Source: Chrysophaeum taylorii
Lineage: Eukaryota > Sar > Pelagophyceae > Pelagomonadales > Pelagomonadaceae
Direction of reading: 5' to 3'
Assembly (NCBI GenBank): GCA_029834535.1
Contig: JAQMWT010000103.1
Coordinates: 1 to 64,000 of the forward strand
DNA length: 64,000 nucleotides
Every line of letters begins with the position of its first letter. The first letter of the stretch is position 1. Shown one piece after another: positions 23,801 to 51,907 of this stretch. The notes beneath the pieces are model-generated. The model made no database searches. It was not told the DNA's origin and saw only the letters and a program-made list of their open reading frames with translations. The position numbers and the translations under genes are program-made.

Positions 23801-26298
23801 CGATGCCGTGGAACTTGAGAAGTTCGTTTTTACCGTGTATGATATCGACCAACAAACGGATCCTTTAGTGCAGCGCGAAAGCTTCTGCATCGACGACGAT
23901 GAATATCACGAATACATTATCTCAGACAGTTCGACGCTGCTCGTCACCGAGCAGGCTGAATCCTGCGCGGGGGGGGAGGGGAGCTCCGTCGTGTTTAGTT
24001 CTACGAGGGCCGGCTTTCTGTGCGACAATCCCACGAGTTCGCGCCTTGGCGTCGTGACGTGTGACCAGTGTCAGCAGTGCCTCGACGACGAGGAGCGCCT
24101 CAGTCAGTACTTTCCAATCAACCGAGCCGACCGCGCCGTGTTAATTGCATTCATTGGTCCCCAGACTAAATTCTCGATCATGCTTGATGTCGAGTGCGAA
24201 AATTGCAACGCCCAAGTGAGTCTAGAATGTTTTTTCGTGTATTATTATAATACCCTTGTGTGTGCAGCCGAGTGGTCGGAACTTTGTGTTCGGCGGCTGG
24301 TCGGAGTTGTGCGACCCTACGAACAGCACTTTAGCACCAGCAAGTCAGCCCACGTCGTCGTTCAACCTCGAGGTCAAACAGATGGCCGTGTTCGGCCCCG
24401 GTGGCACCGAGCTCCACTTCGATTCTGCCGGTACCATGCTTATCGTTGGGAATGAACTTACGCTTTCCTACACGTTTGAATCGACGGTTCCCCTCGAGGT
24501 CGAAACCACAGCATACTTGTGTGCTGCTGGAGATGCAGACAATCCTTGCCTTGAAATCTCTGATCTTATCGTGGCGAATGTGACTCTGCTCGTAGAGGCA
24601 ACTAGTGAAAGAACAATGGCATTGAACTACACGGTCCAAGCACCGACACTGGGGTTGAGCGATGATTACCGCATCGTGACATACATCACCTCAATGCCCA
24701 CGGTAGAACGACGAAATCTGCTGGTCCGCGCACGCGAGTCGCTCTCCCGACGCTTCCTTTCTTCAACAAGTTCTTCGACGAGCGTCAGCATCGAACCTGG
24801 TGCGAGGTACGAGCTTTATACGGGAACGTTTGAGATTGGTCGTTCGCACCCGCCGACCGCGTGCCCAAGTTTGTCACCGACCATCACCCCGGCGCCGTCG
24901 GCCTTACCGACGATGTCACCAGAACCGACGACCTCAATGAGTCCCACGGCCCTCCCGACGGTTTCACCTTCACGAGAACCGACGAGTTCGCTGAGTCCTA
25001 CATCCACACCTCGACCGAGTCCGGGACCGACGCTCGGGCCGACGACGTACGTGCAGCGAATTGATATTGTCCCAGTCGAGTCGTCAGCTGGGTACCACAT
25101 CACAGTCGAAAACCAGGAAGACTGCTTGGTGCTTACTTTGGCGCTCACACTCGTGGGATGGTATGTTATCATTGCCGCGGTTCGCGAGCGGAATCTCATT
25201 TCACGGAAGATCTGCTATCAGCTCAGCGAAAGAGTCTCGACGGTTCCTTTCCTCTTTTTCGCCGTGTTTGATGCCGGATGTGATGGCCTCTTTGTTTGCC
25301 TCCGCAGCGCCGACCGGCGCTGGACGTTCTCGTGGGCAGGTCTCTCAATCATTTTTGTCCGAGTGGTGCTCTCGTTCGCTACAAACCATACGCTGCTGCG
25401 CAGTCGGCATGTTTATAGGTTGGCAGGGTACAGAGCATCTACCAAGAAATTCCTGAACACCACGGCAATGGATGCTCAAGGTGCCGTCTATGGTTCCGTA
25501 CTCTTTGTCAGTGGCATCATGAATCCGTGGCTATTGGTGCTGCTCCCTTGGTACAACTCTTCTCGCGCGAAGCGTCTCAACGGGCTGGCGAATCCACGTT
25601 TGTATTTATGGACTATGGGAGTGACCATCATCTCTTCCGGTTTTCATCTCACAACCAAATTGGTATATCTGCACGAGCCATACGAGCGCGATTACGCGAC
25701 GAATATCGGCGCTCTCACCAACATCATCGTCCTTCTGTACACTGTGACCACACTCTTCGAGGGGGGCGAGGGCGCATTTGAGGAAAGAAACATCAACTTC
25801 AACAACATGGAAGTCGATCTGCAGAACGTTCAGAACTTGAAAGTTCTGGGTGTCGACGAAGACGAGACCATCGAATCTCTCGACCTTGAGCTTCTCGAGA
25901 CGAAGGAGGCACAAAACTTTTTGAGGCAATTATTAAAAGGAGAGGTCGACGACCGCGATTCGTTTCAAACCCTTAGCGGTTTTTCCGACTTTTCTCAGAG
26001 AGGCGACGAGCTTCTACTACGGTGCAATTTCGACGCAGAGGACGTGACGCTCGAGGTCGGGGAGAACACTACTTCAACTGACGAGATCGACACGGTATCT
26101 GCTTTCTTGGGCGAACAAGAGTCGTCTCTTAGCTCGCAGCAGGCTCCTATCACTGGTTTATCCCCCTCGTTGGAACTGATTTCTGCCGTCGACAAATCAC
26201 CTGTTCAAGGTGCCGTCGATGGCGATTCCGAGAATGATGTTGTTAGTCTCCTTTTCGATGTTCGCCAAGCCCCATATCCTCTACCATCACCACCATAG
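11887..26298 (+). CDS. Giant secreted/membrane-anchored PTSAPS-repeat protein, six exons
   Basis: Proposed exons: 11887 to about 11937, about 12011-21679, 21735-22526, 22586-23377, 23436-24215 and 24268-26298 (TAG). That makes about 4,700 residues. Exon 1 encodes the start Met and a hydrophobic MLLTTLFGLIAVPNVLC signal peptide; its donor is uncertain, but the acceptor near 12008-12010 has a pyrimidine tract and an upstream CTGAC. The other four introns (55, 59, 58, 52 nt) begin GTAAGC or GTGAG, end GCAG and are all phase 0. Order of domains: a GDGWNG module, about 2,560 residues of PTxxPSxxPT repeat, a module resembling choice-of-anchor A, four copies of a roughly 260-residue Cys-containing domain, a further extracellular domain, a short PTSAPS stalk, about six membrane spans and an acidic tail. 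It was probably a cell-surface adhesin, sensor or wall protein; that function is inferred from architecture only. Known relatives of the repeat style are stramenopile surface proteins. Confidence 0.85.
12085..12410 (+). other. N-terminal GDGWNG extracellular module
   Basis: Just after the signal peptide the protein has a Cys-containing module reading FEMYDTNGDGWNGACFTI, a GTLSDESEG turn, two nearby Cys pairs and GGDYPSEISWKLG. The DxxGDGWNG ... PSEISW combination is a recurrent module at the start of PTSAPS-type proteins in stramenopiles. The Asp-rich loop suggests Ca2+ binding, which is an inference. It ends where the first PTSAP repeat begins. Confidence 0.6.
12411..20090 (+). repeat. PTSAPS-coding tandem array with 144-bp unit and higher-order repeats
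   Basis: About 7.7 kb of coding DNA encodes tetrapeptide-like PTxx/PSxx repeats. From about 13150 to 19150 the DNA has a 144-bp (48-codon) period; for example ATCGTCGAGCCCCAC recurs every 144 bases. Inside it a larger unit of 864 bp (6 x 144) repeats: the block beginning ATCGTCAAGCCCCACGAGTG at 13741 restarts at 14605. A related 720-bp step (5 units) follows, and the same block restarts again at 16189. All unit lengths are multiples of three, so the frame stays open. The flanking units (12.4-13.1 and 19.2-20.1 kb) are more diverged. The product would be an extended, Ser/Thr-rich, probably O-glycosylated stalk. Confidence 0.9.
20086..20740 (+). other. Extracellular module resembling choice-of-anchor A domain
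   Basis: After the repeat stalk comes a roughly 215-residue globular part within exon 2. It has SAYRAIVVGGNLS near its start and GPSVLAPFAKVVLLNQSIGF followed by GFIVAKSYNG and IELHGQGYSGGYEC near its end. The pattern GG-N ... LAPxAxV ... G ... VAKS ... H resembles the family described in bacteria as choice-of-anchor A. It is followed by another PTSAP linker (20740-20950). The assignment rests on motif memory only. Confidence 0.45.
20956..24315 (+). other. Four tandem copies of a ~260-residue Cys-rich extracellular domain
   Basis: The copies occupy 20956-21679, exon 3, exon 4 and exon 5. Each contains NNLGGxGP near the start, NPVDLVVSV, a DNTRAFLDF-like strand, VYDIDQ, a Cys in the CIDxD context, SSxxAGFLCDNP, CDECQQC and YFPIDQSARAVTLAF. 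Just past each intron the motif GRNFxxGGxSxLC begins the next unit. Exons 3 and 4 are nearly identical (both 792 nt); the first copy and exon 5 are clearly diverged. With every intron in phase 0, units could be added without frame damage. Many Asn-x-Ser/Thr sites are visible. I do not recognise a named family; the pattern suggests a beta-sandwich adhesion or sugar-binding fold. Confidence 0.75.
24268..26298 (+). other. Last exon: extracellular domain, stalk, six-span membrane region, acidic tail
   Basis: Exon 6 begins in the GRNFVFGGWSELC motif, continues with a roughly 170-residue strand-rich domain (24358-24840), a second short PTxSPS stalk (24850-25050), and then hydrophobic segments at about 25120-25185, 25236-25300, 25325-25385, 25475-25550, 25603-25670 and 25700-25760. 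Examples are LVLTLALTLVGWYVIIAAV and IGALTNIIVLLYTVTTLF. A 175-residue tail rich in Glu/Asp and Ser follows and is probably cytoplasmic. Several membrane spans, rather than one anchor, would be unusual for a wall protein and suggest a receptor, channel or transporter-like base. I recognise no family signature. Confidence 0.6.
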
Positions 26299-27277: not shown

Positions 27278-27764
27278 TGTGGCGTAAGGAGAATTTTAGG
27301 GGCTACCTGGCGTGCCTTCGAATCCTGGCTCGCCGCTCGCGTCCGTGCCCTTGGTGGGGTCACTGGACGAGGATGGCCGTTCTCCTGCCACACGACCACA
27401 AATAACTTCCGTGCCTGGTCATCACAACTTGAGGACCGGCTGTTGCTTTATGATCAAGGATATATCGAAAATCAGAAATCAGGGTGACACATGTCACGGA
27501 AAAGGAAGATGATGTCATAGAGAACACTGACATCATCAGAGCGGAGTAGGGTGCCCCTGATAACGGGGGGCTGTGGCAGTAATGCCCATTTCCCCCCACT
27601 TGCCTGCCTGCCACCTGACTTACCCTGATTGTTGCCCTGGTATTGACCTTGCATTTATGGGGGGTGTCATCTTGACACCTTCACCTGCGCTTCCACTGGA
27701 CCCAATGTACCGGGCATTTGTATTGCTTTCTTGCTGTCTTCTTGATATTACCCTCTTTTGTTTG

Positions 27765-27796
<32 letters not shown>

Positions 27797-28178
27797 AAAA
27801 AAAATATGTATAATATTTTTTTTTTAATTTCTTTTTAATTTTTTTTTTTGACAATCAATAGAGGGTAATATCAAGAAGACAGCAAAAAAAATTAATAATA
27901 ATAAACAATTTTTTTTTTTTTTTTTTTTTTTTTTGACAATCAAAAGAGGGTAATATCAAGAAGACAGCAAGAAAGCAATACAAATGCCCGGTACGTTGGG
28001 TCCAGTGGAAGCGCAGGTGAAGGTGTCACGACGACACCCCCCCATAAATGCAAGGTCAATACCAGGGCCACAATCAGGGTAAGTCAGCTGGCAGGCAGGC
28101 AAGTGGGGGGAAATGGGCATTACTGCCACAGGGCCCTAGAAGAGGGGTAAGCCTTAGGAGACGGGAGTTGCCGCCACA
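27278..28178 (-). repeat. 3' LTR of element A, interrupted by a foldback element
   Basis: Starts TGTGGCGTAAGGAG and ends GAGTTGCCGCCACA on the plus strand. Without the insertion at 27571-28131 it is about 339 bp, like the LTRs at 36994 and 42799. A short purine-rich tract (AGGGGAG, minus strand) adjoins it on the internal side and could be the plus-strand primer. Left flank CTGG and the far right flank do not form a target duplication. Confidence 0.8.
27571..28131. mobile_element. Foldback/MITE-like element with ~200-bp inverted arms
   Basis: The left arm (27571-27767, starting CTGTGGCAGTAATGCCC) and right arm (about 27935-28131, ending GGGCATTACTGCCACAG) are near-perfect inverted repeats. 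The AT-rich centre has long A and T runs and contains a third partial arm (about 27850-27890). It is inserted in the G run of the LTR; comparison with the intact LTR suggests a 2-3 base duplication of G. No transposase is present. A lone left arm occurs at 51707-51907. Confidence 0.75.
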
Positions 28179-28331: not shown

Positions 28332-31300
28332 TCAACACATCAATCTCGTGCGGAGCGAAATCCGTGACATAAGGAGTTGTGTTGGAGGAATTCGGGACTT
28401 GTCGGTGAAACTTCGACCTTCAACGTCCTTGAACTCGGGCTTGAGCTTGCGGTGCGAAAGGTGAGAGGTCGGCTTGAAATAAGCGACATCATCGTTCGGA
28501 CCCAAATCGGAATATAAATGTAGAGCAACACGATCATTCTCATAATCGTAAGGCTCGTCAACTTCAGCAACATAAATCTTCTTGCGCCAATCAGAGCGCT
28601 TCCGGTCGGGAATGCGGAAAACAACAAACTTACCGTGCTGATAATCATCACGGAAGGTTTCTTCGGGTTTGCGGATGGCTTGATCAACAATCGGAGGTAC
28701 CATCACAGGCGTGATCTGACTAACATGAACACGTCGTTCTTCGGGCGGAGAGTCGAGAGACTTAATCCTATAGGTGACCGGGGAAAGCCGTTCCTTGATA
28801 ATAAACGGCCCTCGCCATTCCGGTCGAAGTTTATTCTGAAGGAAAGGAATATAGAGCAAAACGTGCAATCCTTCCTTGTATTCAACATCAACATGATCAG
28901 CATTGTAAGCCAATCGTTGTTTCTTCAAAGCTTTATCACGAGCCTCGCAGACGATCTTTGTATAATATTTCAATCGCTAGCGAGTCTCGGCGACTGCATC
29001 AGAGCGAGTCTTCGGCAATAATCGTGTATCAAAATCTATAAGCGTGTAGTCAGTCGGTAGCATCGGCTGACGGTTCAGGCGCAGCATAAAGGGAGAAATC
29101 TGCGTGCCTGGAATAAACTTGCGGTTGTAGCAAAACGCAATATAATGAGCGAAGTCAGGCCAATCCGTGATGTTCCGGCCCTGAAGGCAAGCACGGAGGA
29201 AGGCCTTGATAAATCGGTTGACGCGCTCAGCCGGGTTCGACTGGGCATGATAAGGAATCGTAGTTTGGTATCGGGTGTTAAAGAGATGGCAGAACTCGCG
29301 CATCAACTTGTTCACGAACTCGTTACCGTTGTCGGTACGAATCATCTGGGGCAAGTAGCCCTTGAGCCCTTGAGGAGAATGTTAATGACAAAAGACTCGA
29401 GGACAGACTCAGCAGTCTTATCATTCAAAACATCCAGAATCAAGAAATGCGAGAACGGATCAAAAAATACTAGAAGATACGTCTCGAGACCAACGCTGGG
29501 CAAGGGTCCAAATAAATCCATGCACAGAACAGCACCATCACCATCGTAGACGGGCTGCTGCAAGAGTCCAGCTCGTTTCGGCTCAGGCGTACGAGCTTTC
29601 TGGCAAACTAAACAATCAGCAATGAAGACTCCAACTTCGTTCGACATGTGAGGCCACCAAAATCGTTCTTGGATAGCCTGGACAGTACTGTGACGTCCCA
29701 TATGACCACCGTTAACCGGAGTGTCATGGTAGAGTCGAATAATGCGCTTGAGCAACGTAGCAGGTGCAACAATCATCGGGTGCAAATCAGCAGAAGTGCG
29801 GTGAAGAACGTCTTTAACGACTTCGAATCGTTCGTTCGCTCGGGAACGTCGCGGCGTCTGACCTTGGGCCATTCGGTAGCGAATATCCTCGCAAGTAGCA
29901 TCAGATTCTTGCTCACGTGCGATCTCAGCGAGCGTCATATTAAAGGGTATCTTATCAATATAATCTTTGTAAGCGGCTGCGCCCTTGAAGATCTGTGGCT
30001 CATCGCGCGCACGGTTCTTCCGACGTTGTCTCGTAGCGTGAGACGTAGCCAATTTCATCGGATCCTTTTCAGGATCTTCGTCCTCGTCTTCCGGCAGTTC
30101 GGTCGTAATAAACGACATTATGAAGTGGCAGCCGGAGGCGGGAATTCCTCGGTCATCAACAGGCCGGGGAAGCTCTTGGAATACCAAGTAAGCGTGATTC
30201 AAAGGTTCTCCAATCTCGTCAGTCTCGATGACATGATCTATCGGATTGCGGGAGAGACAGTCAGGGATACTCATTCCCGGTGACTTTCCCGGCTTGTAAC
30301 CAAGTTCAGGGTCAAAATTGGCGAGGCGCATCGCCCACCGAGCAAGCTGCCCAGACGAGTGCGTCGCCTTACGTAAAAGCGTCAAATTTCGGTGATTTGT
30401 CTCCCAAACAGTACGGTGCCCTTCGATGTAGGCTCGAAAGTGCTCTAGAGAAAGTATAACTGCCAGCAGCTCTAGCCGACGGGGCTCATAATTCCGCATC
30501 TCCTTCGGCACAGCTCGGCTCCAATATTCAATCACTCGTTCTTCTCGAGTTACTCTTCCGGCATCGTCCTTGACTTCAACAATCTGGGAGAGATACGCTC
30601 CAAGTCCATCATTGGAAGCATCGGATCGGATCTGAAAAGGCAGATCGTAATCGGGGTGGTAGACTCCCCGGGAATCAACCAAAGCTTCAATAATCGTATC
30701 CCAAGCTTTCTGACACTCGGGCGTCCACTCGAACTTTACACCTTCGAGGCATAATCGTCTCAGCGGTTCCACAATCTTCGAGTAGCCCTTCACGTATCGC
30801 CGGCAGTAATTACTCATGCCGATGAAAGAGCGCATCTGGGTTTTCGGGGAAGTGTTCGGTAAAGTACCTGGAATCGGCATCTTCTGCAGTGCTTCCAGCG
30901 TCTTTGGATTCGGCTTCAAGCCTTCTGGGGTAGAAATGTGTCCCAGAAATTCTATATCATCGTTGAGAATGTGGAACTTCGCGGTTCGACCGCTGTACCC
31001 TCTCTGTGCCAAATGACACATCACTTCGATCAAAACTCGTAAATGTCGATGAAGATCGTCGGATCCCATCATAATATCGTCAACAAACGCAACCAAGTCT
31101 TGATACATCCATTTCGAAAGGTCGCTCGCCATTTGCTTGCAATAAAGAGCTCCGGCCGTCTTCACACCTAGAGGTAATCGCAAGAAACTATGAGCGCCAA
31201 GTGGGCTAACCATCGTGACAGCGTCCTGCGCTGCCGGATCCAGACGAAGGTTGTGGTATCCCCATCTAATATCGATGCATGTCCGCCGTCGTCTCATGGC

Positions 31301-31639
31301 GAGAAAAGCTAAAGCATCATCTTGTCGAATGTTTGGCCAACTGTCATTGACCAATTGATCGTTGTGCTGACGTAAGTCAACTGCAGCACGGAACGCGTTG
31401 GACGTTCCAATCTCAGCTCCTTTCTTCGGAAGCATCAACACAGGAAAGCCCCAAGGTGAGTTGGCCGGACGAATGACTCCATCCCGGCACCACTCGCTGA
31501 TCTGCTTGCGGAGACAATCGAGCTTCGCAGGCGTCAATCGGTAGGGCGTCATCTTTATCGGTCGCGGATTCGCGTCTTTGAATCGTAGAGACACAGGAGG
31601 CGAGTCCACAGGTCTCATAATCGGGTCGAAAGGGCCCAA
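28332..31639 (-). pseudogene. Element A pol: RT, RNase H and integrase
   Basis: The frame at 31639-29342 gives RT with GVIRPANSPWGFPVLMLPKK and the active site AFVDDIMMG (FVDD at 31076-31087), then RNase H with RSDASNDGLGAYL and YEPRRLELLAVILSLEHF. Next comes the integrase zinc finger (H...H...CLVCQK) and the first catalytic Asp in CMDLFGPLP. An 8-base duplication near 29350 shifts the frame into 29354-28977, with IRTDNGNEF and PAERVNRF (second Asp and Glu). After an in-frame TAG (28974-28976) the integrase tail follows: LRPEWRGPFIIKERLSP is a GPY/F-like module, and a charged domain with GKFVVFRIPDRKRSDW comes last. It would copy and insert the element. Confidence 0.85.
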
Positions 31640-33558
31640 GAATATTGCACACAGTGACGGAGCATCAGTTTCGCCTCGTCATCTAAGTGCGGATTGTCAG
31701 GAATTCCCAGCTCCTGCACAATCTTGTCAACTTCTTCCTTCGTAGGAATTTTAACTTTCATTGCCTCGTTATCCTTGACATGCTTGGGAGTTTGCGGCAG
31801 CGGTGCACCCTGAGCATCGCGCGGCGCATCTTTCCATGGCACATCGAACTTTTTCTCGTAATTTAGTTTCACTTCCGGGTGGCTTTTGTTGATCCTCTCG
31901 CCTTTGACACGAACACTCGGCTCGCTCTTAATCTTCGGTTCCTGATCTCGCTCAGGATCTGGCGGAACGTCTAAATTTGGTTGTCGGGGGGGGGCAGCAG
32001 AAGAAGCATGAGACGTCCCCGGCTCATCTGTTGCAGGCGGAATCAACGGTACCTCTGGAGGTTCCCATTTGGTGCGATCTTGGAGATCATCAGTCGACAC
32101 CCATCTTACGACACGTGTGCGCGTGTTTAACAGCGGAACTTGTACGTGACGAAGGGTGGTTTCATCAATTTGTAAATAATAATCAAACGGTCGGTCTGCA
32201 GGACTCAACGCTGACGGCAAAGCTTCGCCGCTCAGGTGAAATTCCTTGGTCACAGAGTTGTGCAGATCGAGCACTAATAAGGCCATCGTGTCAGGTGGCA
32301 CGACGGACGCCAAGTGTTTTAACGAGGTCGTCCTGGAGAAGCCGGCCCAATCAAAATCCAGGGGCATAGTCAGCAACTCCGAAGTCATTTTCAGATTCAG
32401 AGATCTGTAATCGGAACGGTGCGGTCCTACGCGAAGCGGGACCCGCGTAACGGTGTAAGCTGCTTCTGTCGCGGCTCGTGATGATCCTAGATTGTTCATC
32501 TGAAGTAAATGTCGTTCGTCGGCGTAGCCAAGTGCTTCGGCGAACTCTTGCTGCATATTCTTGCAAGTCTATGGAACTGCGCGCAAATGGAGCGGATGGC
32601 TGGAAACCAACAATCGCGCGCGACAGCTCATCAAACTGGGAGTTATGTCGTAAAAATTGACGACGTACACGTAAGGGTGCAAACCTGCAACGTAAGAAAT
32701 AATCGAAGCCTCCTGCTCTATCAACCACATGAAGAAACCAGCCATCTTGCATAATTTCATCGTCCAGTGGGTAGCGGTGACTCATTTCCCAACATATTTG
32801 GAGGTCAAGTTGCACAGAGCGGAGTGTACGCAGGGTGGCGACGCGACACACATCGACGACGACCATTCCGCGTAGGGTAAATAAGATTCGATCAACCGTA
32901 AGGTTGTAACATAGCGACCACACAGTGTGTGCTGCACCACAGGAAAGTTCGGAAAATTCTTATGGTGGATCTGGTTGGCGGTGTCCGACGTATCGAGTGC
33001 TAGCACGACTCGAAACGACGTCCCACACGTTTCGTTGGCTCGTTGGAGACCTAAAGTACTGCCTCCGGCTCCACTGAACAGCATCACCACCTTGCGAGAA
33101 GTGATTGGAAGCCATTGAGCCTTTTCATATTGGCGGCGGATCTCCGCTTCGGTGATCTCGCGGCATTTCTTTTCATCTTCTTCTGACCTTCGAGCGAAAA
33201 TCAACTGATCTTTGGCCAACTTTTTGACCATTTCTCGGCAAATATAAGAAACATCTGCCATACCATCGACACCGATGGTCGTCGAGAATTTCGATCCGTC
33301 ACGATTCCTGTAGATGTGACAGGCTATAAACGTAAGAGTACCCGTATCTAAACGACTGAGGGTAACCAAATCATCTTCGATCGTCTTGCCGTCTCGCGGC
33401 GTCAACGAAGTGCGAGCACATCGGGCTCTGACTCGCTCATCACCGGGGTTGGGCATCGATACCGCGGCTTGAGCTTTCGTATCATCTGTTGTTGGCGTCT
33501 TCGCCATAATGCTCGCGTCAGCCTTTATCTGGCGGCTTCCGCTCTTCCTCCAAGACAA
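31615..33558 (-). pseudogene. Element A protease-like segment and cytosine-5 DNA methyltransferase
   Basis: One minus frame runs from 33558 to 31615 with two stops (TGA at about 32782, TAG at about 32557). Protease-like residues TTIGVDGMADVSYI (about 33276-33235) precede KVVMLFSGAGGSTLG, which is motif I of C5 methyltransferases (33093-33049). VLALD and NFPNFPVV follow, then VASPPCVHS with the motif IV PPC (32838-32830). Next are LIEQ in place of the usual ENV, CRARLLVSS (motif VIII, QxRxR-like), and MTSELLTMPLDFDW with LASVVPPDTM, matching motifs IX-X (VPP at 32301-32293). The reaction would be transfer of a methyl group from S-adenosylmethionine to cytosine in DNA. The segment after the methyltransferase leads into RT; a one-base loss near 31640 breaks that junction. 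Confidence 0.75.
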
Positions 33559-36993: not shown

Positions 36994-37332
36994 TGTGGCG
37001 TAAGGAGAATTTTAGGGGCTACCTGGCGTGCCTTCGACTCCTGGCTCGCCGATCGCGTCCGTGCCCTTGGTGGGATCACTGGACGAGGATGGCCGTTCTC
37101 CCGCCACGCGCGACCACAAACAACTTCCGTGCCTGGTCCTCTCAACTTGAGGACCAGCTGTTGCTTTATCATCAAGGATATATCGAAAATCAGAAATCAG
37201 GGTGACATGCGTCACGGAAAAGGAAGATGATGTCATAGAGAACACTGACATCATCGGAACGGAGTAGGGTGCCCCTGATAAGGGGGGCCCTAGAAGAGGG
37301 GTAAGCCTTAGGAGGCGGAAGTTGCCGCCACA
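36994..37332 (-). repeat. LTR shared by elements A and B
   Basis: A 339-bp repeat with TGTGGC...GCCACA ends, closely matching 42799-43137. It lies between the 5' end of A (primer-binding site at its left) and the 3' end of B's internal region (GGACTCCCCTGGTAAG at its right), so it serves as 5' LTR of A and 3' LTR of B. LTR-LTR recombination of tandem copies would give this structure. Confidence 0.8.
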
Positions 37333-37372
37333 GGACTCCCCTGGTAAGAATTCGAGCTGCCCCAGCGAGGTG

Positions 37373-40300
37373 CTAGCGCGAGGAGCGCGGCTTCGCCTTA
37401 CGAGCATCTCGTGAACAAATCTTCTGGTAAACGCTGGTGATGATCGGCTCAGGAACTCGACCACTGCGTAAAGTAAACTTGGGGATCAACACATCAATCT
37501 CGTGCGGAGCGAAATCCGTGACACAGGGAGTTGTGTTGGAGGAAATTCGGGACTTGTCGGTGAAACTTCGACCTTCAACGTCCTTGAATTCGGGCTTGAG
37601 CTTGCGGTGCGAAAGGTGAGAGGTCGGCTTGAAATAAGCGACATCATCGTTCGGACCCAAATCGGAATAGAAATGTAGAGCAACACGATCATTCTGATAA
37701 TCGTAAGGCTCGTAAACCTCGGCAACATAAATCTTCTTGCGCCAATCAGAGCGCTTCCGGTCAGGAATCCGGAAAACAACAAACTTACCGTGCTGATAAT
37801 CATCACGGAAGGTTTCTTCGGGTTTGCGGATGGTTTGATCAACGATCGGAGGTACCATCACAGGCGTGATCTGACTTACATGAACACGCCGCTCTTCGGG
37901 CGGAGAGTCGAGAGACTCAGTCCTGTAGGTGACCGGGGAGAGGCGTTCCTTGATAAAAAACGGCCCTCGCCATTCCGGTCGAAGTTTATTCTGAAGGAAA
38001 GGAATGTAGAGCAAAACGTGCGATCCTTCCTTGTATTCAACATCAACATGATCAGCATTGTAAGCCAATCGCTGTTTCTTCAAAGCTTTATCACGAGCCT
38101 CGCAGACGATCTTTGTATAATATTTCAATCGTTAGCGAGTCTCGGCGACTGCATCAGAGCGAGTCTTCGGCAATAATCGTGTATCAAAATCTATAAGCGT
38201 GTAGTCAGTCGGCAGCATCGGCTGACGGTTCAGGCGCAGCATAAAGGGAGAAATCTGCGTGCCTGGAATAAACTTGCGGTTGTAGCAAAACGCAATATAA
38301 TGAGCGAAGTCAGGCCAATCCGTGATGTTCCGGCCCTGAAGGCAAGCACGGAGGAAGGCCTTGATAAATCGGTTGACACGCTCAGCCGGGTTCGACTGGG
38401 CATGATAGGGAATCGTAGTTTGGTATCGTGTGTTAAAGAGATGGCAAAACTCGCGCATCAACTTGTTCACGAACTCTTTACCGTTGTCGGTACGAATCAT
38501 CTGGGGCAAGTAGCCCTCGAGGAGAATGTTAATGACAAAAGACTCGAGGACAGACTCAGCGGTCTTATCGTTCAAAACATCCAGAATCAAGAAATGCGAG
38601 AACGGATCAAAAAATACTAGAAGATACGTCTCGAGACCAGCGCTGGGCAAGGGTCCAAATAAATCCATGCACAGAACAGCACCATCACCATCGTAGACGG
38701 GCTGCTGCAAGAGTCCAGCTCGTTTCGGCTCAGGCGTACGAGCTTTCTTGCAAACTAGGCATTCAGCAATGAAGACTCCAACTTCGTTCGACATGTGAGG
38801 CCACCAAAATCGTTCTTGGATAGCCTGGACGGTACTGTGACGTCCCATATGACCACCGTTAACCGGAGTGTCATGGTAGAGTCGAATAATGCGCTTGCGC
38901 AACGTAGCAGGTGCAACAATCATCGGGTGCGAATCAGCAGAAATGCGGTAAAGAATATCTTTAACGACTTCGAATCGTTCGTTCGCTCGGGAACGTCGCG
39001 GCGCCTGACCTTGGGCCATTCGGTAGCGAATATCCTCGCAAGTAGCATCAGATTCTTGCTCACGTGCGATCTCAGCGAGCGTCATATTATCGGGTATCTT
39101 ATCGATATAGTCTTTGTAAGCGGCTGCGTCCTTGAAGATCTGTGGCTCATCACGCGCACGGTTCTTCCGACGTTGTCTCGTAGCGTGAGACGTAGCCAAT
39201 TTTATCGGATCCTTTTCAGGGTCTTCGTCTTCGTCTTCGTCTTCCGGCAGTTCGGTCGTAATAAACGACATTATGAAGTGGCAGCCGGAGGCGGGAATTC
39301 CTCGGTCATCAACAGGCCGGGGAAGCTCTTGGAATACCAAGTAAGCGTGATTCAAAGGTTCTCCAATCTCGTCAGTCTCGATGACATGATCTATCGGATT
39401 GCGGGAGAGACAGTCAGGGATACTCATTCCCGGTGACTTTCCCGGCTTGTAACCAAGTTCAGGGTCAAAATTGGCGAGGCGCATCGCCCACCGAGCAAGC
39501 TGCCCAGACGAGTGCGTCGCCTTACGTAAAAGCGTCAAATTTCGGTGATTTGTCTCCCGAACAGTACGGTGCCCTTCGATGTAGGCTCGAAAGTGCTCTA
39601 GAGAAAGTATAACTGCCAGCAGCTCTAGCCGACGGGGCTCATAATTCCGCATCTCCTTCGGCACAGCTCGGCTCCAATATTCAATCACTCGTTCTTCTCG
39701 AGTTACTCTTCCGGCATCGTCCTTGACTTCAACAATCTGGAAGAGATACGCTCCAAGTCCATCATTGGAAGCATCGGATCGGATCTGAAAAGGCAGATCG
39801 TAATCGGGGTGGTAGACTCCCCGGGAATCAACCAAAGCTTCAATAATCGTATCCCAAGCTTTCTGACACTCGGGCGTCCACTCGAACTTTACACCTTCGA
39901 GGCATAATCGTCTCAGCGGTTCCACAATCTTCGAGTAGCCCTTCACGTATCGCCGGCAGTAATTACTCATGCCGATGAAAGAGCGCATCTGGGTTTTCGG
40001 GGAAGTGTTCGGTAAAGTACCTGGAATCGGCATCTTCTGCAGTGCTTCCAGCGTCTTCGGATTCGGCCTTAAGCCTTCTGGGGTAGAAATGTGTCCCAGA
40101 AATTCTATATCATCCTTGAGAAGGTGGAACTTCGCGGTTCGACCGCTGTACCCTCTCTGTGCTAAATGACACATCACTTCGATCAAAACTTGTAAATGTC
40201 GATGAAGATCGTCGGATCCCATCATAATATCGTCAACAAACGCAACCAAGTCTTGATACATCCATTTCGAAAGGTCGCTCGCCATTTGCTTGCAGAAAAG

Positions 40301-40886
40301 AGCTCCGGCCGTCTTCACACCTAGAGGTAATCGCAAGAAACTATGAGCGCCAAGTGGGCGAACCATCGTGACAGCGTCCTGCGCTGCCGGATCCAGACGA
40401 AGGTTGTGGTATCCCCATCTAATATCAATGCATGTCCGCCATCGTCTCATCGCGAGAAAGGCTAAAGCATCATCTTGTCGAATGTTTGGCCAACTGTCAT
40501 TGACCAATTGATCGTTGAGCTGACGTAAGTCAACTGCAGCACGGAACGCGTTTGACGTTCCAATCTCAGCTCCTTTCTTCGGAAGCATCAACACAGGAAA
40601 GCCCCAAGATGAGTTGGCCGGACGAATGACTCCATCCCGGCACCACTCGCTGATCTGCTTGCGGAGGCAATCGAGCTTCGCAGGCGTCAATCGGTAGGGC
40701 GTCATCTTTATCGGTCGCGGATTCGCGTCTTTGAATCGTAGAGACACAGGAGGCGAGTCCACAGGTCTCATAATCGGGTCGAAAAAGGCCCAAGAATATT
40801 GCACACAGTGACGGAGCATCAATTTCGCCTCGTCATCTAAGTACGGATTGTCAGGAATTCCCAGCTCCTGCACAACCTTGTCACGG
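37373..40886 (-). pseudogene. Element B pol: RT, RNase H and integrase
   Basis: A frame of about 918 codons (40886-38132) carries RT (FVDD at 40229-40240), RNase H, integrase zinc finger (CLVCKK) and the catalytic Asp, Asp and Glu contexts CMDLFGPLP, IRTDNGKEF and PAERVNRF, all without interruption. An in-frame TAA at 38129-38131 separates it from the integrase tail (38128-37373: GPFFIKERLSP and a charged C-terminal domain). Element A has a stop at the same codon, but TAG. The tail is longer here than in A, ending KPRSSR. The start is artificial: upstream codons come from the inversion junction. Confidence 0.85.
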
Positions 40887-42798
40887 CTCGAAGGTCGGAA
40901 GAAGATGAAAAGAAATGCCGCGAGATCACCGAAGCGGAGATCCGCCGCCGATATGAAAAGGTTCAATGGCTTCCAATCACTTATCGCAAGGTTGTGATGC
41001 TGTTCAGTGGAGCCGGAGGCAGTACTTTAGGTCTCCAACGAGCCAACGAAACGTGTGGGACGTCGTTTCGAGTCGTGCTAGCACTCGATGCTTCGGACAC
41101 CGCCAACCAAATCCACCACAAGAACTTTCCGAATATTCCTGTGGTGCAGCACACACTGTGTGGTCGCTATGTTACAACCTTACGGTTGATCGAATCTTAT
41201 TTACCCTACGCGGAATGGTCGTCGTCGATGTGTGTCGCGTCGCCACCCTGCGTACACTCCGCTCTGTGCAACTTGACCTCCAGAGATGTTGGGAAAGGAG
41301 TTACCGCTGCCCACTGGACGATGAAATTATGCAAGATGGCTGGATTCTTCATGTGGTTGATAGAGCAGGGGGCTTCGATTATTTCTTACGTTGCACGTTT
41401 GCACCCTTACGTGTACGTCGTCAACTATTACGACATAACTCCCAGTTTGATGAGCTGTCGCGTGCGCTTGTTGGTTTCGAGCCATCCGCTCCATTTGCGC
41501 GCAGTTCCAAAGACTTGCAAGAATATGCAGCAAAAGTTCGCCGCAGCACTTGGCTACGCCGACGAACGACATTTACTTCAGATGAACAATTTAGGATCAT
41601 CACGAGCCGCGACAGACGCAGCTTATACTGTTACGCGTGTCCCGCTTCGCGTAGGACCGCACCGTTCCGATTACAGATCTCTGAATCTGGAAATGACTTC
41701 GGAGTTGCTGACGATGTCCCCTGATTTTGATTGGGCCGGCCTCTCCAAGACGACCTCGTTGAAACACTTGGCGTCCGTCGTGCCACCTGACACGATGGCC
41801 TTATTAATGCTCGATCTGCACAACTCTGTGACCAGGGAATTTCACCTGAGCGGCGAAGCTTTGCCGTCAGCGTTAAGTCCTGCAGACCGACCGTTTGATT
41901 ATTATTTACAAATTGATGAAACCACCCTTCGTCACGCACAAGTTCCGCTGTTAAACACGCGCACACGTGTCGTAATATGGGTGTCGAATGATGATCTTCA
42001 AGATCTCACCAAATGGAAACCTCCAGAGGTACCGTTGATTCCGCCTGCAACAGATGAGCCGGGGACGTCTCATGCTTCTTCTGCTGCCCCCCCCGACAAC
42101 CAAATTTAGACGTTCCGCCAGACCCTGAGCGAGATCGGGAACCGAAAATTAAGAGCGAGCCGAGTGTTCGTGTCAAAGGCGAGAGGATCAACAAAAGCCA
42201 CCCGGAAGTGAAACTAAAATACGAGAAAAAGTTCGATGTGCCATGGAAAGATGCGCCGCGCGATGCCGAGGGTGCACCACTGCCGCAGACTCCTGAGCAT
42301 GTCAAGGACAACGAAGCAATGAAAGTTAAAATTCCTACGAAGGAAGAAGCTGACAAGGTTGTGCAGGAGCTGGGAATTCCTGACAATCCGCACTTAGATG
42401 ACGAGGCGAAATTGATGCTCCGTCACTGTGTGCAATATTCTTGGGCCTTTTTCGACCCGATTATGAGACCTGTGGACTCGCCTCCTGTGTCTCTACGATT
42501 CAAAGACGCGAATCCGCGACCGATAAAGATGACGCCCTACCGATTGACGCCTGCGAAGCTCGATTGCCTCCGCAAGCAGATCAGCGAGTGGTGCCGGGAT
42601 GGAGTCATTCGTCCGGCCAACTCACCTTGGGGCTTTCCTGTGTTGATACTTCCGAAGAAAGGAGCTGAGATTGGAACGTCAAACGCGTTCCGTGCTGCGG
42701 TCGACTTACGTCAGCTCAACGATCAATTGGTCAATGACAGTTGGCCAAACATTCGACAAGATGATGCTTTAGCCTTTCTCGCGATGAGACGATGGCGC
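40887..42798 (+). pseudogene. Element B methyltransferase and RT N-terminus, inverted
   Basis: The plus strand opens within ARRSEEDEKK, just past the protease-like segment. It carries the whole methyltransferase without interruption (40970-42109): LFSGAGGSTLG (motif I, 41000-41032), ASPPCVHS (PPC at 41243-41251), LIEQ, CRVRLLVSS (motif VIII) and LASVVPPDTM (VPP at 41780-41788). The stops seen in A are absent here (GKGV and VPKTC instead). A one-base loss in a C run near 42093 (8 C against 9 in A) ends the frame; the linker and RT N-terminus continue in another frame (42208-42798) until the LTR. This is the most intact methyltransferase in the window. Confidence 0.75.
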
Positions 42799-43137
42799 TG
42801 TGGCGTAAGGAGAATTTTAGGGGCTACCTGGCGTGCCTTCGAATCCTGGCTCGCCGATCGCGTCCGTGCCCTTGGTGGGATCACTGGACGAGGATAGCCG
42901 TTCTCCCGCCACGCGCGACCACAAACAACTTCCGTGCCTGGTCCTCTCAACTTGAGGACCGGCTGTTGCTTTATGATCAAGGATATATCGAAAATCAGAA
43001 ATCAGGGTGACATGCGTCACGGAAAAGGAAGATGATGTCATAGAGAACACTGACATCATCGGAACGGCGTAGGGTGCCGCTGATAAGGGGGGCCCTAGAA
43101 GAGGGGTAAGCCTTAGGAGGCGGAAGTTGGCGCCACA
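42799..43137 (-). repeat. Third LTR of the A/B tandem
   Basis: 339 bp, TGTGGCGTAAGG...GCGCCACA, very similar to 36994-37332. On its left it is fused directly to an interior RT position (GATGGCG|C), without a primer-binding site. On its right is ACAAACAAACAAACAG microsatellite. Confidence 0.8.
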
Positions 43138-46900: not shown

Positions 46901-48025
46901 TTGACGTATGTGCCTGTGGCTATCTCTTCGCAAGATGGTTCGAAATATTCCATCATCACTGCCGGCTTGGATGGCATGGCTGATTCCCCCAACATCGATC
47001 GCCGCTTGTATCGCAAACTTGATCGTGACGGCAAAATCATCTATCGTCAGCCACTCCCTACGATTCGTACTCTAAATGGGTCAGGAGGTTCGGGAGCTGC
47101 TATTCGAGAATGGGTCATCCTCCGGATCTCCTAGGTGTCGACGACATCCATGCTGCTCATGTTATTCGTTGGTCAAACGAATGGGCAGTTGCTATTAGGA
47201 GCACGAGAATTACGACTCTTAGGTACGATTTTGGATTATGCGACAGAGAGAGCTATTTTTCGGCGTTCTGAAGTGACCATTGGAGTTCTCACGAATCGGA
47301 CTTCCGCCTCGCCACAAGACCAGCATGGAATTGTCCTTTACAATGATGCATTCGATGCGACTCCGCAGGTAGTGCAGATGTTCACGACAGCTAAGCTTGC
47401 TGTGCAATACGGAAATATCCAAACTTGGACGCCAGTTGGTAAACCGTGGAGTTATGACAGTCTATTGCGTTCTATTCGTATCAGAGCGAGTCACCATCAC
47501 ATTCCTCCCGGTGATCAGACTACTGAAACAGCTGAAGACCAACTTGAATGCCCTGCAGACGAGGAAGATATCATCCCTCATTTCGCGTACGTGACGAGTA
47601 CTCGATTTCTTCTTCAAAACCAACCGTACTTCTTGGAGATGGAGTGCGATGTGCCGCTGGAAAAGAGTCACGTATTCCGACCTTATCGGTCACTCCTCAA
47701 AGATCTCCACCTTGTACCTGGTTCCTATTCATCGTATTGTGCTGATGAGCCCAACGAAGTTCATGTGGCTGTGGAGCACATTGGTGACGAACCCATTGGT
47801 ATCGACCCCGAAGTCCCGGTGGTCGAAGGCGAGATCATGCCGCATAAAGGATGTGTCAACATGCAGCTAGAAGCCACTGATGACGTGTGTCATGCCACTC
47901 TTACGGCTGCTGTTGACGACGATGAAGTCGAGGAGGATGTCTTGAGTGACAGGCCTCCTCCCCAGCCACCTCCAGATGAAGAAGTGAATAAAAGCACCAG
48001 AAATGGAGATGGAGGCGACTGTTAA
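43931..48025 (+). pseudogene. Element C gag and protease-like region, one frame
   Basis: A single frame from ATG 43931 to 48025, interrupted by stops at 45524 (TGA) and 47132 (TAG) and by a retroposon insertion (44238-44595) that keeps frame. Gag has a coiled coil (LESTRRDAQQQRSEVERQRI), then gag-like helices (DEVDAWWMQLRRMM, ELEREWFNLRQG) and CLSCGRHGSFYHDNGVC, a knuckle-like C-x2-C-H-C. Gln-rich and acidic linkers lead to the protease-like YSIITAGLDGMADSPNIDRR (46947-47006) and LLLGARELRLLGTILD (47190-47240), the latter like the LLG segment of retropepsins. About 250 acidic residues follow before the methyltransferase. Confidence 0.65.
44238..44595 (-). mobile_element. Short retroposon with LINE-type 3' tail inside gag of C
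   Basis: Flanked by an 11-bp target duplication ACCCTACGAAC (44227-44237 and 44596-44606). On the minus strand it ends GGCTCCCATGCTCGGGAGAG, then GAAG and a TTAG-type tail, the same 3' end as the LINE at 7234-10509. Insert plus one duplication is 369 bp, so the gag frame reads through. No Pol III promoter boxes were seen, so it could be a 5'-truncated LINE of a related subfamily or a SINE. A sister copy is at 55078-55445. Confidence 0.75.
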
Positions 48026-48085
48026 GGAGCTGCCATCTAAGCACGCCTCCTTGGTTTGGATACCCATCACCTACACCTTCGTCGT

Positions 48086-49100
48086 CGTCTACCTTTACTG
48101 GCGCTGGAGGATCAACGTTGGGTATCCGGCGATGCGATGAGCTATATGGCAGTTCATTTCGCATTGTCCTGGCTTTGGATGCTTGTCCTCAAGCCCGAGC
48201 CACCTTTGAACTCAATTTTCCGAAGATTCCCTATGTTTTGCATGAGTTGGGGAAATCTCATCGTCGTACATACGACTTAGTGTTGTCGTATTTACACTCA
48301 GATTTTTGGAAGCACTCTTATTTTCACGCCTGTCCGCCGTGTATCTATGGATCGAATGCCAATTTGCACTACAGGGACGCACGCAAGGGCGCTACTATTA
48401 CTTCTTGGGTCCTGCGTCATTTCCGCAACGCACCTTATGTGATTGGACGATGGACACTCGAGCAAGAACCATCAGTGATCCCTTTTGTGCATCACCAATT
48501 TTATGTGCCGCGCATTGTTGATTTCTATAGTATCACGCCAGAGCTGCTGTGCTCGCGCACGCGCCTACTTGCTTGCAATGTTCGCTTGGAGCTGCCGTTA
48601 TTATCGCGTGTACCACCGAATTTACGGGACCGTTTTGGGCCAGCGTTGGGATTTACAGGTGGTCACCCGCTCATTATAGTGAACAGTTTCTCATCTACGC
48701 GCCCGGCTATCGGCCCTGCCTTCACAGTGACGCGCAATAAGCTCCACCTAGGACCTCATTTCTCGAACACCCGTCCACTCACGTTGCAGATGCACCAGGA
48801 CATTATGACCGTTCCTGCTACGTGGCAATGGGGTGAGACAGTTTCAGAGACAGCAGCTATGAAGATGCTTGGCAGCATGGTGCCACCCGCGACTATGACG
48901 CGGATTGCGCTAGCAGTGCACAATTCGTTTGAACCTTCACTTCGAAATTTGGGTAAGTTGCGGAATATTGCGACGACTACGCTAGCCCAACCTGATCACC
49001 ATATTCTACGGTTTTCACCTTTTGCTGTAGAGTCGCGCATTCCAACGCTCGACCCTGCCACTCGAAGTGTATCATGGATTGCGCCCGGTGAACTCTATTC
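48086..49100 (+). pseudogene. Element C cytosine-5 DNA methyltransferase domain
   Basis: A frame opening upstream of 48091 reads TFTGAGGSTLG (motif I, 48091-48123), FRIVLALDACPQARATFELN, FHACPPCIYGS (motif IV, PPC at 48334-48342), WTLEQEP (motif VI-like, EQ for EN), LLCSRTRLLACNV (motif VIII-like), TLQMHQDIMTVPATWQW and MLGSMVPPATM (motifs IX-X, VPP at 48880-48888). These follow the same order and spacing as in A and B, although the residues between differ greatly, which argues for one acquisition before the families split and for selection on the motifs. A frameshift near 48030-48060 separates it from the gag-protease frame; RT follows in the same frame. Confidence 0.7.
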
Positions 49101-49299
49101 TCCTGCGAGTCCTGCACCATCAGCTGATGCCACCACCACCCCGCCACCACCTTCAGTTACATCGCCTGGGACGGCTTCCTCTTTTGCAGGGGGCACCGTC
49201 GCCATTGCTGTTATGCAGAGCAACCAAGTTGATAACCAGCCCTCCGCAACTGCTGAAGAAGGAGGCACCGCGAAAGAGCGACCAGCGTATTTCAATACG

Positions 49300-51010
49300 T
49301 ACGGCGTTCCGTGGGCGGACGCGCCTCACGACGAACATGGTCAACCTCCACCGGTGATGCCTCCTCATTTAGCGGATCAGGAGAGCATGCAGGTCATCCC
49401 TCCGACCGTCGCGCAGGTCGAAGAGGTGATGACTGAATTGGATACTACAGAGCATCCTGCTTTAGATGATGACGAGAAGCTGATGATGAAGCATTTAATC
49501 TCGTATTCGTGGGCATTTTTCGATGATGTGATGAGACCTGTGGATTCACCTGAAGTGACGCTCCGGTTTAAAGAAGAGAACCCGACTCCCGTTAAACTCT
49601 CGCCATATCGGTTGTCGAAAGAAAAGATTGAATGTTTGCGGATGCAGATTGAAGCGTGGACCCGAGACGGAGTTATTCGTCCCGCGAATTCTCCATGGGG
49701 GTTCCCTATTTTGATGTTGCCTAAGAAAGGTGCTGAGCCTGGCACTTCCAATGCTTACAGTGCAGCTGTCGATCTACGGCGCCTCAATGCATTGCTCAAG
49801 GATGATAGCTGGCCGAGTGTGAGCATGGCTGACGCGTTGATGTTTCTCATCGACAAGTTTTGTCGTTCCAGTTTGGATATTCGTTGGGGCTATCACAATT
49901 TACGATTGTCGCTAGATGCACAAGATGTGGTCACCTTCACTAGTCCTCTGGGAGCGTACAGCTACATGCGTCTACCTTTTGGAGTCAAACCAGCCGGAAG
50001 TTTGTTTTGCAAGCAGTTGAACACTGACTTGTCTCGACATGGCTATATCGTGATCTCGCGGCATATATCGACGATATTCTCGCCGGTCACGCAGATACAA
50101 AGAATCACTTGCAGTGCCTTGTGCAAGTTATTCCCCATCTCGGCTTGAAGGGGTACAGCGCCAAGATCAAGAAGATTCATTTTATGCAAGAAGTCATTGA
50201 GTTTTTTGGTCATTTATCTACCCCGAATGGACTTCTTCCATCACCAAGATCTTTAGAAGCCATCAGACACATGCCAATTCCTGGCACTTTGTCGGATGCT
50301 GACCCTAAGCAGGTGCGATCTTCCTTGGAATGGGGAGCTTGCCGGCGTTATGTAAGGAATTTTGATAGTTGCAGAGCCATTAAGACAACGGACGTTGCCG
50401 GACGTAAATTCAAGTGGACGAAGAGTGTCAGGAAGCTTGGGGTGCCATCATCGAGGCTATTGTCACGTCGGGGCGTCTACCATCCTGATTACTCGTTGCC
50501 TTTTTACATTCGAACTGACTGCGCGCATGAGGTTGGGTGCTTACCTATTTCAAAAAAGTACCAGTCGTTGACGACGATGGAAGAGAAAGAATCGAAGAGA
50601 GGTTCGAGTACTGGAGTCGAACCGTGCCTAAGTCGATGAGGAAGTATGATCCTCGGCGCTTGGAACTCCTCGCGTACTCTCTGCTCTCGTTTTCCGATTA
50701 AGAAGGTCATCATACGAAGTTAGAGACGGATCATCGTAATTTGACGTTTCTGCGGATTCGATCATCTGGACAGTTAGCACGATGGGCGCGGCTTGCTGCG
50801 TTCGACCGGGAGCTCGGACCAAACCTGGAAGCTCCGGCATGCGCCCGGATTGTCTGTCGCGCAACCCTATCGACAAATTGATCGAGAAAGATGAAGACGG
50901 GGAACCGATCAATGAAGCGATTTTCCAAGATCCCGATGTCCCTGGCACCGCTTGCTTCACCTTCTCTTCGGTGACGATGCCTATGCTGACGGACAGCGGA
51001 CCCACCGCCA
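49300..51010 (+). pseudogene. Element C RT and decayed RNase H
   Basis: RT runs from about 49430 with DDVMRPVDSPEVTLRFKEEN, DGVIRPANSPWGFPILMLPK and SSLDIRWGYHNLRLS. A frame change near 50035 precedes the active site YIDD (50064-50075). EFFGHLSTPNGLLPSPRSLE and MPIPGTL follow in the new frame. RNase H is recognisable only in scraps (IRTDCAHEVG, TDHRNL) and the region ends with DCLSRNPID at about 50855-50880. No integrase motif was found downstream, so the 3' third is lost or unrecognisable. Confidence 0.7.
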
Positions 51011-51706
51011 GGTAGCGGATAGTACGCGACAGAACGCAACCGCCTCAATTCTCGCGAATCTGAGCCAGTTGACTCCGTCGAACGTCTCGCGGATCAAGCG
51101 GAGGATGAGATCACCTCGATGAGATAGCGAAAGAACAAGCACGGCGGTTACTCGGACGTTGAGCGGATTTTGTGCGTCTCAAGACAAAAGCGAGCCCAGG
51201 AGACCACCCACAGTTCGCCGAGAGGCAGAAAGAAGGCCGGAGAGACCAACCATAGTCTTGGAGACCAACCGTGTCGAGCAAGGAAGAGTGCAGAGTAAGT
51301 CCGTCACACCATTAAACCGTCGAACGCATTGTGCGCGAAAGGCGCAAGAATCGAACAGTAGCCGGCAAATTTTGCTGCTCGACGACAAGTTTTGGTGTTC
51401 GAGATAGGTGATATCGAGAAATCGCACCATGGAAACTAGAGAGACTGAGCGTTCTGCGACCGCTGGCTGAGAACGACGCTTTAAGACCAGAAGACAAGAT
51501 CGACGGAGTAGCTTCCATGCCTACGACCAAACATGAAGGCTGAACCCTGTGTGATGATTTCCCCGGATGATCGATGTGAAATCACTAACTTCGGTCCCCA
51601 CAGCAACAAAGTTCCTGCTGATGTAGCTGGACAGGCTTATCGCCATCGTGTGCGTGACCTTCGTCACCCTTGAGTCGAGGACGACTTCATCTCAAGTAGG
51701 GGGCTC
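51010..51706 (+). other. Degenerate 3' part of element C, no clear coding motif
   Basis: About 700 bases with only short frames. It lies where integrase should be, but no zinc finger or catalytic triad could be read in any frame. A frame around 51420-51540 (VLRPLAENDALRPEDK) may be a remnant of the integrase tail or another host piece. Confidence 0.35.
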
Positions 51707-51907
51707 CTGTGGCAGTAATGCCCATTTGCCCCCACTTGCCTGCCTGCCACCTGACTTACCCTGATTGTTGCCCTGGTACTGACCTTGCATTTATGGGGGG
51801 GGGGGTGTCATCTCGACACCTTCACCTGCGCTTCCACTGGACCCAATGTACCGGGCATTTGTATTGCTTTCTTGCTGTCTTCTTGATATTACCCTCTTTT
51901 GATTGTC
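51707..51907 (+). mobile_element. Single arm of the foldback element
   Basis: Nearly identical to the left arm at 27571-27767, from CTGTGGCAGTAATGCCC to CTCTTTTGATTGTC, with no matching right arm. It may be a deletion derivative or the original monomer. Confidence 0.7.

Follow-up and report, generated by a model that had tools for sequence, protein, structure and literature searches.

Has a DNA cytosine methyltransferase (MTase) become part of a retrotransposon in Chrysophaeum taylorii, does it belong to a working family of elements rather than to a single copy, and what would such an enzyme do there? The analysis of the window, by which we mean the whole 64,000-nucleotide stretch of contig JAQMWT010000103.1, concerned positions 40970-42109 of the plus strand, where the translation (P0001) comprises 379 residues without an inner stop. 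A sequence-only reading of this DNA had noticed C5-cytosine MTase motifs in this frame, and that observation is confirmed, since LFSGAGGSTLG, VLALD, ASPPC, IEQ, CRVR and SVVPP follow one another in C5-MTase order in a single frame. We take the peptides of this frame to represent motifs I, II, IV, VI, VIII, IX and X. The claimed order from I to X stood for the SAM motif FxGxG, for PPC, for the motif VI glutamate and for RxR, whereas motifs VI, VIII and X are degenerate. The canonical C5-MTase forms of these three are ENV, QxRxR and NxVPP; the P0001 family has EQ, CxRxR or SxRxR, and SxVPP in their place, replacing the Asn of motif VI, the Gln of motif VIII and the Asn of motif X. The features of the domain, together with those of a neighbouring relative termed element C, are as follows.

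40841 to 42109, plus strand: open frame holding the MTase domain, from stop to stop; it contains P0001 (40970-42109).
40988 to 41839, plus strand: predicted MTase core (P0001 residues 7 to about 290), running from motif I through motif X and placed by the PF00145 match at residues 7-62 and the alignment with element C, the end of the core being approximate.
41243 to 41251, plus strand: PPC with the putative catalytic cysteine C94, placed by the motif and the alignment with element C.
41363 to 41365, plus strand: E132, the motif VI-type glutamate, placed by the alignment with element C.
41459 to 41467, plus strand: R164-x-R166, the motif VIII-type arginines, placed by the alignment with element C.
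47992 to 50148, plus strand: element C frame, with an MTase (about 48091-48990; PF00145 36 bits) and then a reverse transcriptase (RT).

Taken singly, P0001 appears as a borderline MTase match by profile comparison. Its PF00145 score is 21.9 bits (E = 1.4e-4), 0.1 bit below the curated cut-off of 22 bits and covering residues 7-62 at the N-terminus only, and its match to the NCBIfam dcm profile has E = 0.0019. Recognition by PF00145, which the sequence-only reading had put forward as a check, thus just fails for P0001 itself but holds for several relatives. Element C, a diverged relative 7 kb away whose MTase is 34.8% identical to that of P0001, reaches 36.0 bits (E = 6.9e-9) in two matched stretches, the better being the C-terminal end of the profile. 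Scores above the cut-off were also obtained for genomic loci L054 (25.4), L055 (26.2), L058-L060 (24.1-25.2) and L051 (25.3), the last scored as a long polyprotein, as were L042 and L053, which stay under the cut-off at 18.9 and 13.8 bits.

This was further strengthened by an alignment, A1, of 25 rows (P0001, 13 of the 29 other loci L010-L038, L053, the three subfamily 1b members L054-L056 and seven element C-lineage rows). All 25 members match PF00145 at E <= 0.01, and C94, E132, R164 and R166 are invariant across them. Nine key residues chosen from general knowledge of the MTase family (F12, G14, G16, D40, P93, C94, E132, R164 and R166) are all identical between P0001 and element C, which would occur by chance with a probability of about 7e-5 given their overall identity and independent sites; after removal of the frame-shifted L024, all 33 family copies retain them, except that one differs at F12. 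Of the A1 rows, the 18 of gypsy B/1b and six of the seven of element C have SPPC as motif IV, the element C of the window having CPPC. Structural comparison gave less: the A1 profile matched no solved structure at E <= 1, P0001 alone matched two DNMT2-type chains at E of about 0.05, element C matched one MTase at E = 1, and an AlphaFold model from an alignment of the three window rows only had a pLDDT of 30.5, too low to speak for or against the Rossmann MTase fold that the sequence-only reading had put forward as a further check. A search of 5.8 billion proteins, which excluded those longer than 1.75 times the query and hence most polyproteins, returned no relative at the set limits among the 7,998 candidates scored for P0001 and the 7,997 scored for A1. 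No homolog of the domain was confirmed in viral contigs (75 pattern matches), and none was found in phages.

The position of the domain is seen most completely in L042, a single frame of 3026 residues that runs off the end of its stretch (the genome search with P0001 lists open frames 3063 and 3067 aa long), with DTG at residue 987, PF00145 at 1405, RVT_1 at 1960, FVDD at 2074, RNaseH at 2219, H2C2 at 2515 and rve at 2591. The DTG is followed by an LLG...VLG segment of the kind typical of retropepsins, and the protease is identified by motif alone, without a Pfam match. This single-frame order bears out the earlier claim that the MTase-type domain sits in Ty3/gypsy pol between a protease-like segment and the RT. 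The long terminal repeats (LTRs) of the family are direct, 336-339 bp long and of the form TGTGGCG...CGCCACA; those of L051 show zero substitutions across 336 positions, with one gap column, and this copy has the 5-bp target duplication GCACA. The protease-RT-RNaseH-integrase order, the LTRs and the short target duplication of L051 place the elements with Ty3/gypsy (Metaviridae-type). We conclude that a Ty3/gypsy lineage carries the MTase as a standing part, in the arrangement Gag - protease - MTase - RT - RNaseH - integrase; the presence of the domain, its order from the protease-like motif onward and its catalytic-type residues are direct observations, as are the copy number and purifying selection described below. 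The domain is very probably a C5-MTase-derived part of gypsy pol.

Two features of these loci are recorded separately. L051 (C477) keeps the MTase and has no RNaseH or integrase match in frame; it may have moved in trans, or may have lost RNaseH and integrase after insertion. Between MTase and RT lies a poly-C tract (window 42087-42094; 5-12 C in 30 loci, L010-L038 included), beyond which the RT continues in the frame of the MTase at 14 of 28 loci. Programmed slippage at this tract was considered, but the pattern is accounted for equally well by assembly error or by indels in copies that are decaying; the tract may be a frameshift site, an indel hot spot or an assembly error.

The copy in the window has a different history. 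Comparison with L042, L044, L051 and L052 reveals two minus-strand elements, A and B, arranged in tandem with one common LTR:

27278 to 28175, minus strand: left LTR of element A, interrupted at 27571-28131 by a palindromic insert; the right end of the LTR is estimated from LTR length.
29342 to 31639, minus strand: RT-RNaseH-H2C2 frame of element A, from domain matches.
31984 to 33111, minus strand: MTase copy of element A, 93% identical, with two in-frame stops.
36994 to 37332, minus strand: LTR common to elements A and B, serving as the 5' LTR of A (primer-site flank on the left) and the 3' LTR of B (3'-internal flank on the right).
38132 to 40966, minus strand: RT-RNaseH-H2C2-rve frame of element B, on the opposite strand to the MTase segment.
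40884 to 40885, no strand: junction at which 40883 meets the inverted segment 40886-42797, from the locus comparison.
42058 to 42897, plus strand: linker and RT start in a frame other than that of the MTase; RT similarity breaks off at 42797.
42799 to 43137, minus strand: right LTR of element B, 97.9% identical to 36994-37332.

Segment 40886-42797 of element B, which runs from the MTase into the first part of the RT, has the opposite orientation to the element's own LTRs and RT-integrase frame, and the MTase of P0001 is therefore separated from the polyprotein to which it belonged. The MTase frame stops four codons past the poly-C tract, ahead of the RT, which lies in another frame. Positions 40437-40883 and 42351-42797 are inverted duplicates (98.9% identical) that place 447 bp of linker and RT on both arms. 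Element B cannot, then, count as preserved: what lies at 36994-43137 is a remnant between two LTRs with an inversion inside. Its description as the best-preserved copy applies to the MTase reading frame within the window, but the surrounding element is inverted and broken, and 87 of the 108 genomic places listed for P0001 are stop-free in the matched stretch, some matches being partial. At 40970-42109 the family is represented by a rearranged fossil, not by a working element. In element B an LTR end is joined directly to internal RT sequence, which looks like an inversion product, and autointegration might yield such a structure.

Other parts of the window were noted in passing. The palindromic insert at 27571-28131 in the LTR of element A is MITE-like, with the ends CTGTGGCAGTAATG...CATTACTGCCACAG, and about 200 bp of it recurs at 51701-51907. 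Positions 12023-21808 hold an open frame of 3261 aa with a long array of 144-bp repeats (PF04886, PT repeat), which is either a giant repeat protein or a repeat array, and 21705-26298 holds frames of 278-680 aa with internal repeats 67-82% identical and without a Pfam match.

The HSP90 of the genome searched points to a stramenopile host among the best 120 of 7996 hits (94% to an MMETSP transcript, 83% to Dictyocha), the two rows of highest bit score being plant proteins at 71-72%; a dinoflagellate or Perkinsus host was rejected, as the spliced-leader pattern gave 0 matches. The family to which this fossil belongs is abundant. In the genome searched (70.8 Mb, 697 contigs), P0001 matches at least 108 places, the two of the window included, at 77-100% identity (108 scored of 1120 candidates), and the RT matches at least 150 listed places from 894 candidates. 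The element C domain gave at least 135 rows (128 scored of 859 candidates), some of them pieces of one copy, and element C represents a second MTase-bearing gypsy lineage. Between elements B and C the RTs are 65% identical over 177 residues and the MTases 35%. By the Nei-Gojobori method, the dN/dS of the MTase was 0.186 (435 pairs of 30 copies; 0.43 over 465 pairs when the frame-shifted L024 was included). Between subfamilies 1 and 1b (three copies of 1b, 93 pairs, L024 included), the median dS was 1.81, near saturation, with a dN of 0.123 and a ratio of sums of 0.077, and between the subfamilies of the element C lineage dS was 1.37-1.53 and dN 0.105-0.127. For the young element C pair L058/L059, dN/dS was near 1. 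The RT was found by its anchor in 28 of 30 loci, 21 of which were kept, and gave a dN/dS of 0.070 (210 pairs); over the same 190 pairs the values were 0.167 for the MTase and 0.072 for the RT, about twofold apart, the RT ratio being biased low because seven RTs were excluded for stops, frame or length. These comparisons of coding sequence indicate that the C5-MTase-type domain in pol is under purifying selection (dN/dS 0.186; subfamily ratio about 0.08), less tight than that on the RT.

What kind of MTase the family carries was examined by profile-profile comparison (hhalign) of A1 with host DNMT2, one phage dcm-type enzyme, host DNMT5 and a copia-type MTase. Host DNMT2, the best of these four, scored 34 (E = 6.7e-4) over 144 columns through motif VIII, against 24.4 for the best of 16 shuffles; the phage enzyme scored 24.6 (best of 16 shuffles 16.5) and host DNMT5 14.5. 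Element C rows alone scored 21.7 with DNMT2, below their best shuffle of 23.5. The gypsy MTase shares the SPPC form of motif IV with DNMT2, the enzyme that methylates C38 of tRNA, but it is part of a retroelement polyprotein, and the C-terminus of the element C MTase resembles generic PF00145. DNMT2 has a CFT block between motifs VIII and IX; it is present in host DNMT2 and absent from P0001, L054, L058 and element C. We would call the gypsy MTase an orphan PF00145 lineage, judged by these four enzymes and by the protein candidates scored, among which it has no relative.

When the genome was searched with PF00145, 57 places emerged, among them host DNMT2 (C634; best solved-structure match DNMT2, E = 3.9e-39) and L047 (C621), a DNMT5-like host gene with MTase and SNF2 domains, whose presence makes CG maintenance methylation possible in the host. 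Nine of the other 55 places were examined (L003-L008, L050 and L057 by translation, L049 by Pfam scan), and since each recurs in the list of a copia-domain search, they are treated as one family. In L006, L007 and L057 an aspartic-protease motif, DGGAS, precedes the MTase; in L050 a weak rve match (16.5 bits, E = 0.01, cut-off 32.6) follows it; and in L049 the copia-type RT (RVT_2; 98.9 and 134.1 bits) lies downstream on the same strand. We read this as the order of a Ty1/copia element whose MTase sits after the protease and before the integrase, the order and common strand suggesting a single element. The four full copia-type domains compared have LPCQ and ENV, the domain gave at least 138 rows (129 scored of 670 candidates), and dS among four copies was 0.24-0.92 with dN of 0.04-0.11. 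A1 had no match to the copia-type MTase (hhalign 12.8), which makes two origins likely; the gypsy and copia-type MTases thus probably arose separately, with very old common descent as a possible alternative.

The capture of MTases by eukaryotic retrotransposons was, as the sequence-only reading acknowledged, already reported: de Mendoza et al. (2018, PMC5890265) describe MTases in LINE and DIRS elements of Symbiodinium and in a gypsy Pol of Klebsormidium nitens. The suggestion that the position inside pol might be new has to be given up, as KnitGypsy-Dnmt3 already has a DNMT in gypsy Pol (PMC5890265). It resembles the family described here in carrying a C5-MTase in a Ty3/gypsy-type Pol frame with key residues kept and under purifying selection, and differs in that its MTase is Dnmt3-type, whereas ours is divergent with relatives not found among the candidates scored, and in that its repeats are DIRS-like, whereas ours are ordinary direct LTRs (336-339 bp) accompanied, in L051, by a target duplication of 5 bp; its copies are fewer than those in Symbiodinium (PMC5890265). 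SymbioDIRS-Dnmt3 and SymbioLINE-Dnmt are likewise high-copy retrotransposon MTases, the LINE type also being an orphan MTase lineage, but they belong to LINE and tyrosine-recombinase elements of a dinoflagellate, whereas here LTR elements with an rve integrase are concerned (PMC5890265). In further sources, DNMT3 is reported in LTR Copia and DIRS elements (PMC12344493), a likeness in that the MTase lies within a copia-class element; methylase-bearing gypsy/DIRS elements are said to occur in stramenopiles among others (PMC6338049); DNMT5 and DNMT6 are reported in pelagophytes and dictyochophytes (PMC9998398) and RID-type genes in fungi (PMC11105155); and a giant virus of Aureococcus is predicted to encode six MTases (PMC12700378). 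The copia-type MTase of this genome differs from the Copia case in having no match to the gypsy MTase. In the titles and abstract openings listed by the literature searches, which mostly excluded subscription papers and bioRxiv, no description was found of this gypsy lineage, in line with the earlier view that the lineage may be new, or of both LTR superfamilies with MTases in one stramenopile. What is new is this lineage, its orphan MTase type and the use of MTases by both LTR superfamilies in one genome, an MTase in gypsy Pol having been published.

As to function, the MTase would be made as part of Gag-Pol, upstream of the RT, and, from retroelement biology, would be packed into the particle beside RNA, primer and nascent cDNA. 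Released there by the protease, it would methylate cytosines of the element's own cDNA before integration, and the new copy would arrive marked, guarded against nucleases or foreign-DNA sensing or passing as host DNA. We consider methylation of element cDNA in the particle probable, if far from assured. A precedent for the activity of a Pol-borne MTase is that SymbioDIRS-Dnmt3 domains methylate CG in yeast, while the KnitGypsy MTase showed no activity in yeast, a result its authors call inconclusive (PMC5890265). That result counts against cDNA methylation, as do the sub-threshold PF00145 scores of P0001, L042 and L053, the A1 profile's lack of a solved-structure match, the outcome of the protein search, the MTase ratio of twice that of the RT and the ratio near 1 in the young element C pair. 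A CpG deamination scar was also not found: across 30 copies the C/T difference rate was 0.019 in CG, 0.042 in CHG and 0.044 in CHH (0.034, 0.057 and 0.068 at third positions), CpG o/e in family copies was 1.26, and 5 of the 12 transitions between the LTRs of element A fell in CpG (p = 0.30, with hand-estimated denominators). Maintained CpG marks would leave extra CpG transitions, so the mark may be transient or non-CpG, the target may be RNA, or the copies may be too young.

An RNA target leads to the alternative that survives best, an RNA cytosine MTase of DNMT2 type that would modify primer tRNA or genomic RNA in the particle, aiding priming or hiding the RNA; we regard it as unlikely but deserving serious attention. 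The shared SPPC motif, the DNMT2 score of 34 against 24.6, 14.5 and 12.8 for the phage, DNMT5 and copia-type enzymes, and the DNMT2 type of both solved-structure matches of P0001 point towards it, but the phage enzyme too beats its own shuffles, element C falls below its best shuffle with DNMT2, and the CFT block is missing while the C-terminus of element C matches generic PF00145. Somewhat less probable is that the MTase changes silencing by acting on the chromatin of the host, either at insertion sites and their surroundings or, in trans, across the whole genome: hundreds of matching stretches in a 71-Mb genome and a DNMT5-like gene that could maintain the marks are consistent with it, and the copies, with neither CpG depletion nor an excess of CpG transitions, argue against it. 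That the domain no longer catalyses and is retained in the polyprotein for structure or for binding nucleic acid would agree with the degenerate motifs VI, VIII and X and the poor profile scores, yet it is very improbable in view of a catalytic-type Cys, Glu and both Arg that are invariant in the 25 aligned members at 35% identity and in 33 of 33 copies. Chance resemblance without MTase homology, for which the borderline P0001 score and the unmatched A1 profile might speak, is scarcely credible against the two PF00145 stretches of element C and the nine shared key residues.

A bolder reading takes in both superfamilies. We offer, as a speculation with rather little chance of being right in full, that gypsy and copia elements took up different MTases separately, that their common slot after the protease points to one recurrent function, the marking of cDNA in the particle before integration, as a phage-like anti-restriction step directed at a nuclease, of the host or of a giant virus, to which methylated DNA is immune, and that the gypsy MTase is a new class and not Dnmt3. 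Since no relative of the gypsy enzyme was found in the collections searched, it may have a new substrate.

Transposons are more commonly found on the receiving end of cytosine methylation. The elements described here extend retroelement MTases beyond the dinoflagellate and charophyte cases of PMC5890265, and that a second type of mobile element in this genome has an MTase of its own is a hint that marking nucleic acid while it is being copied has been of advantage more than once. With two LTR superfamilies holding different conserved MTases in the same polyprotein slot, the question of what a retroelement gains from methylating would become testable by comparison.
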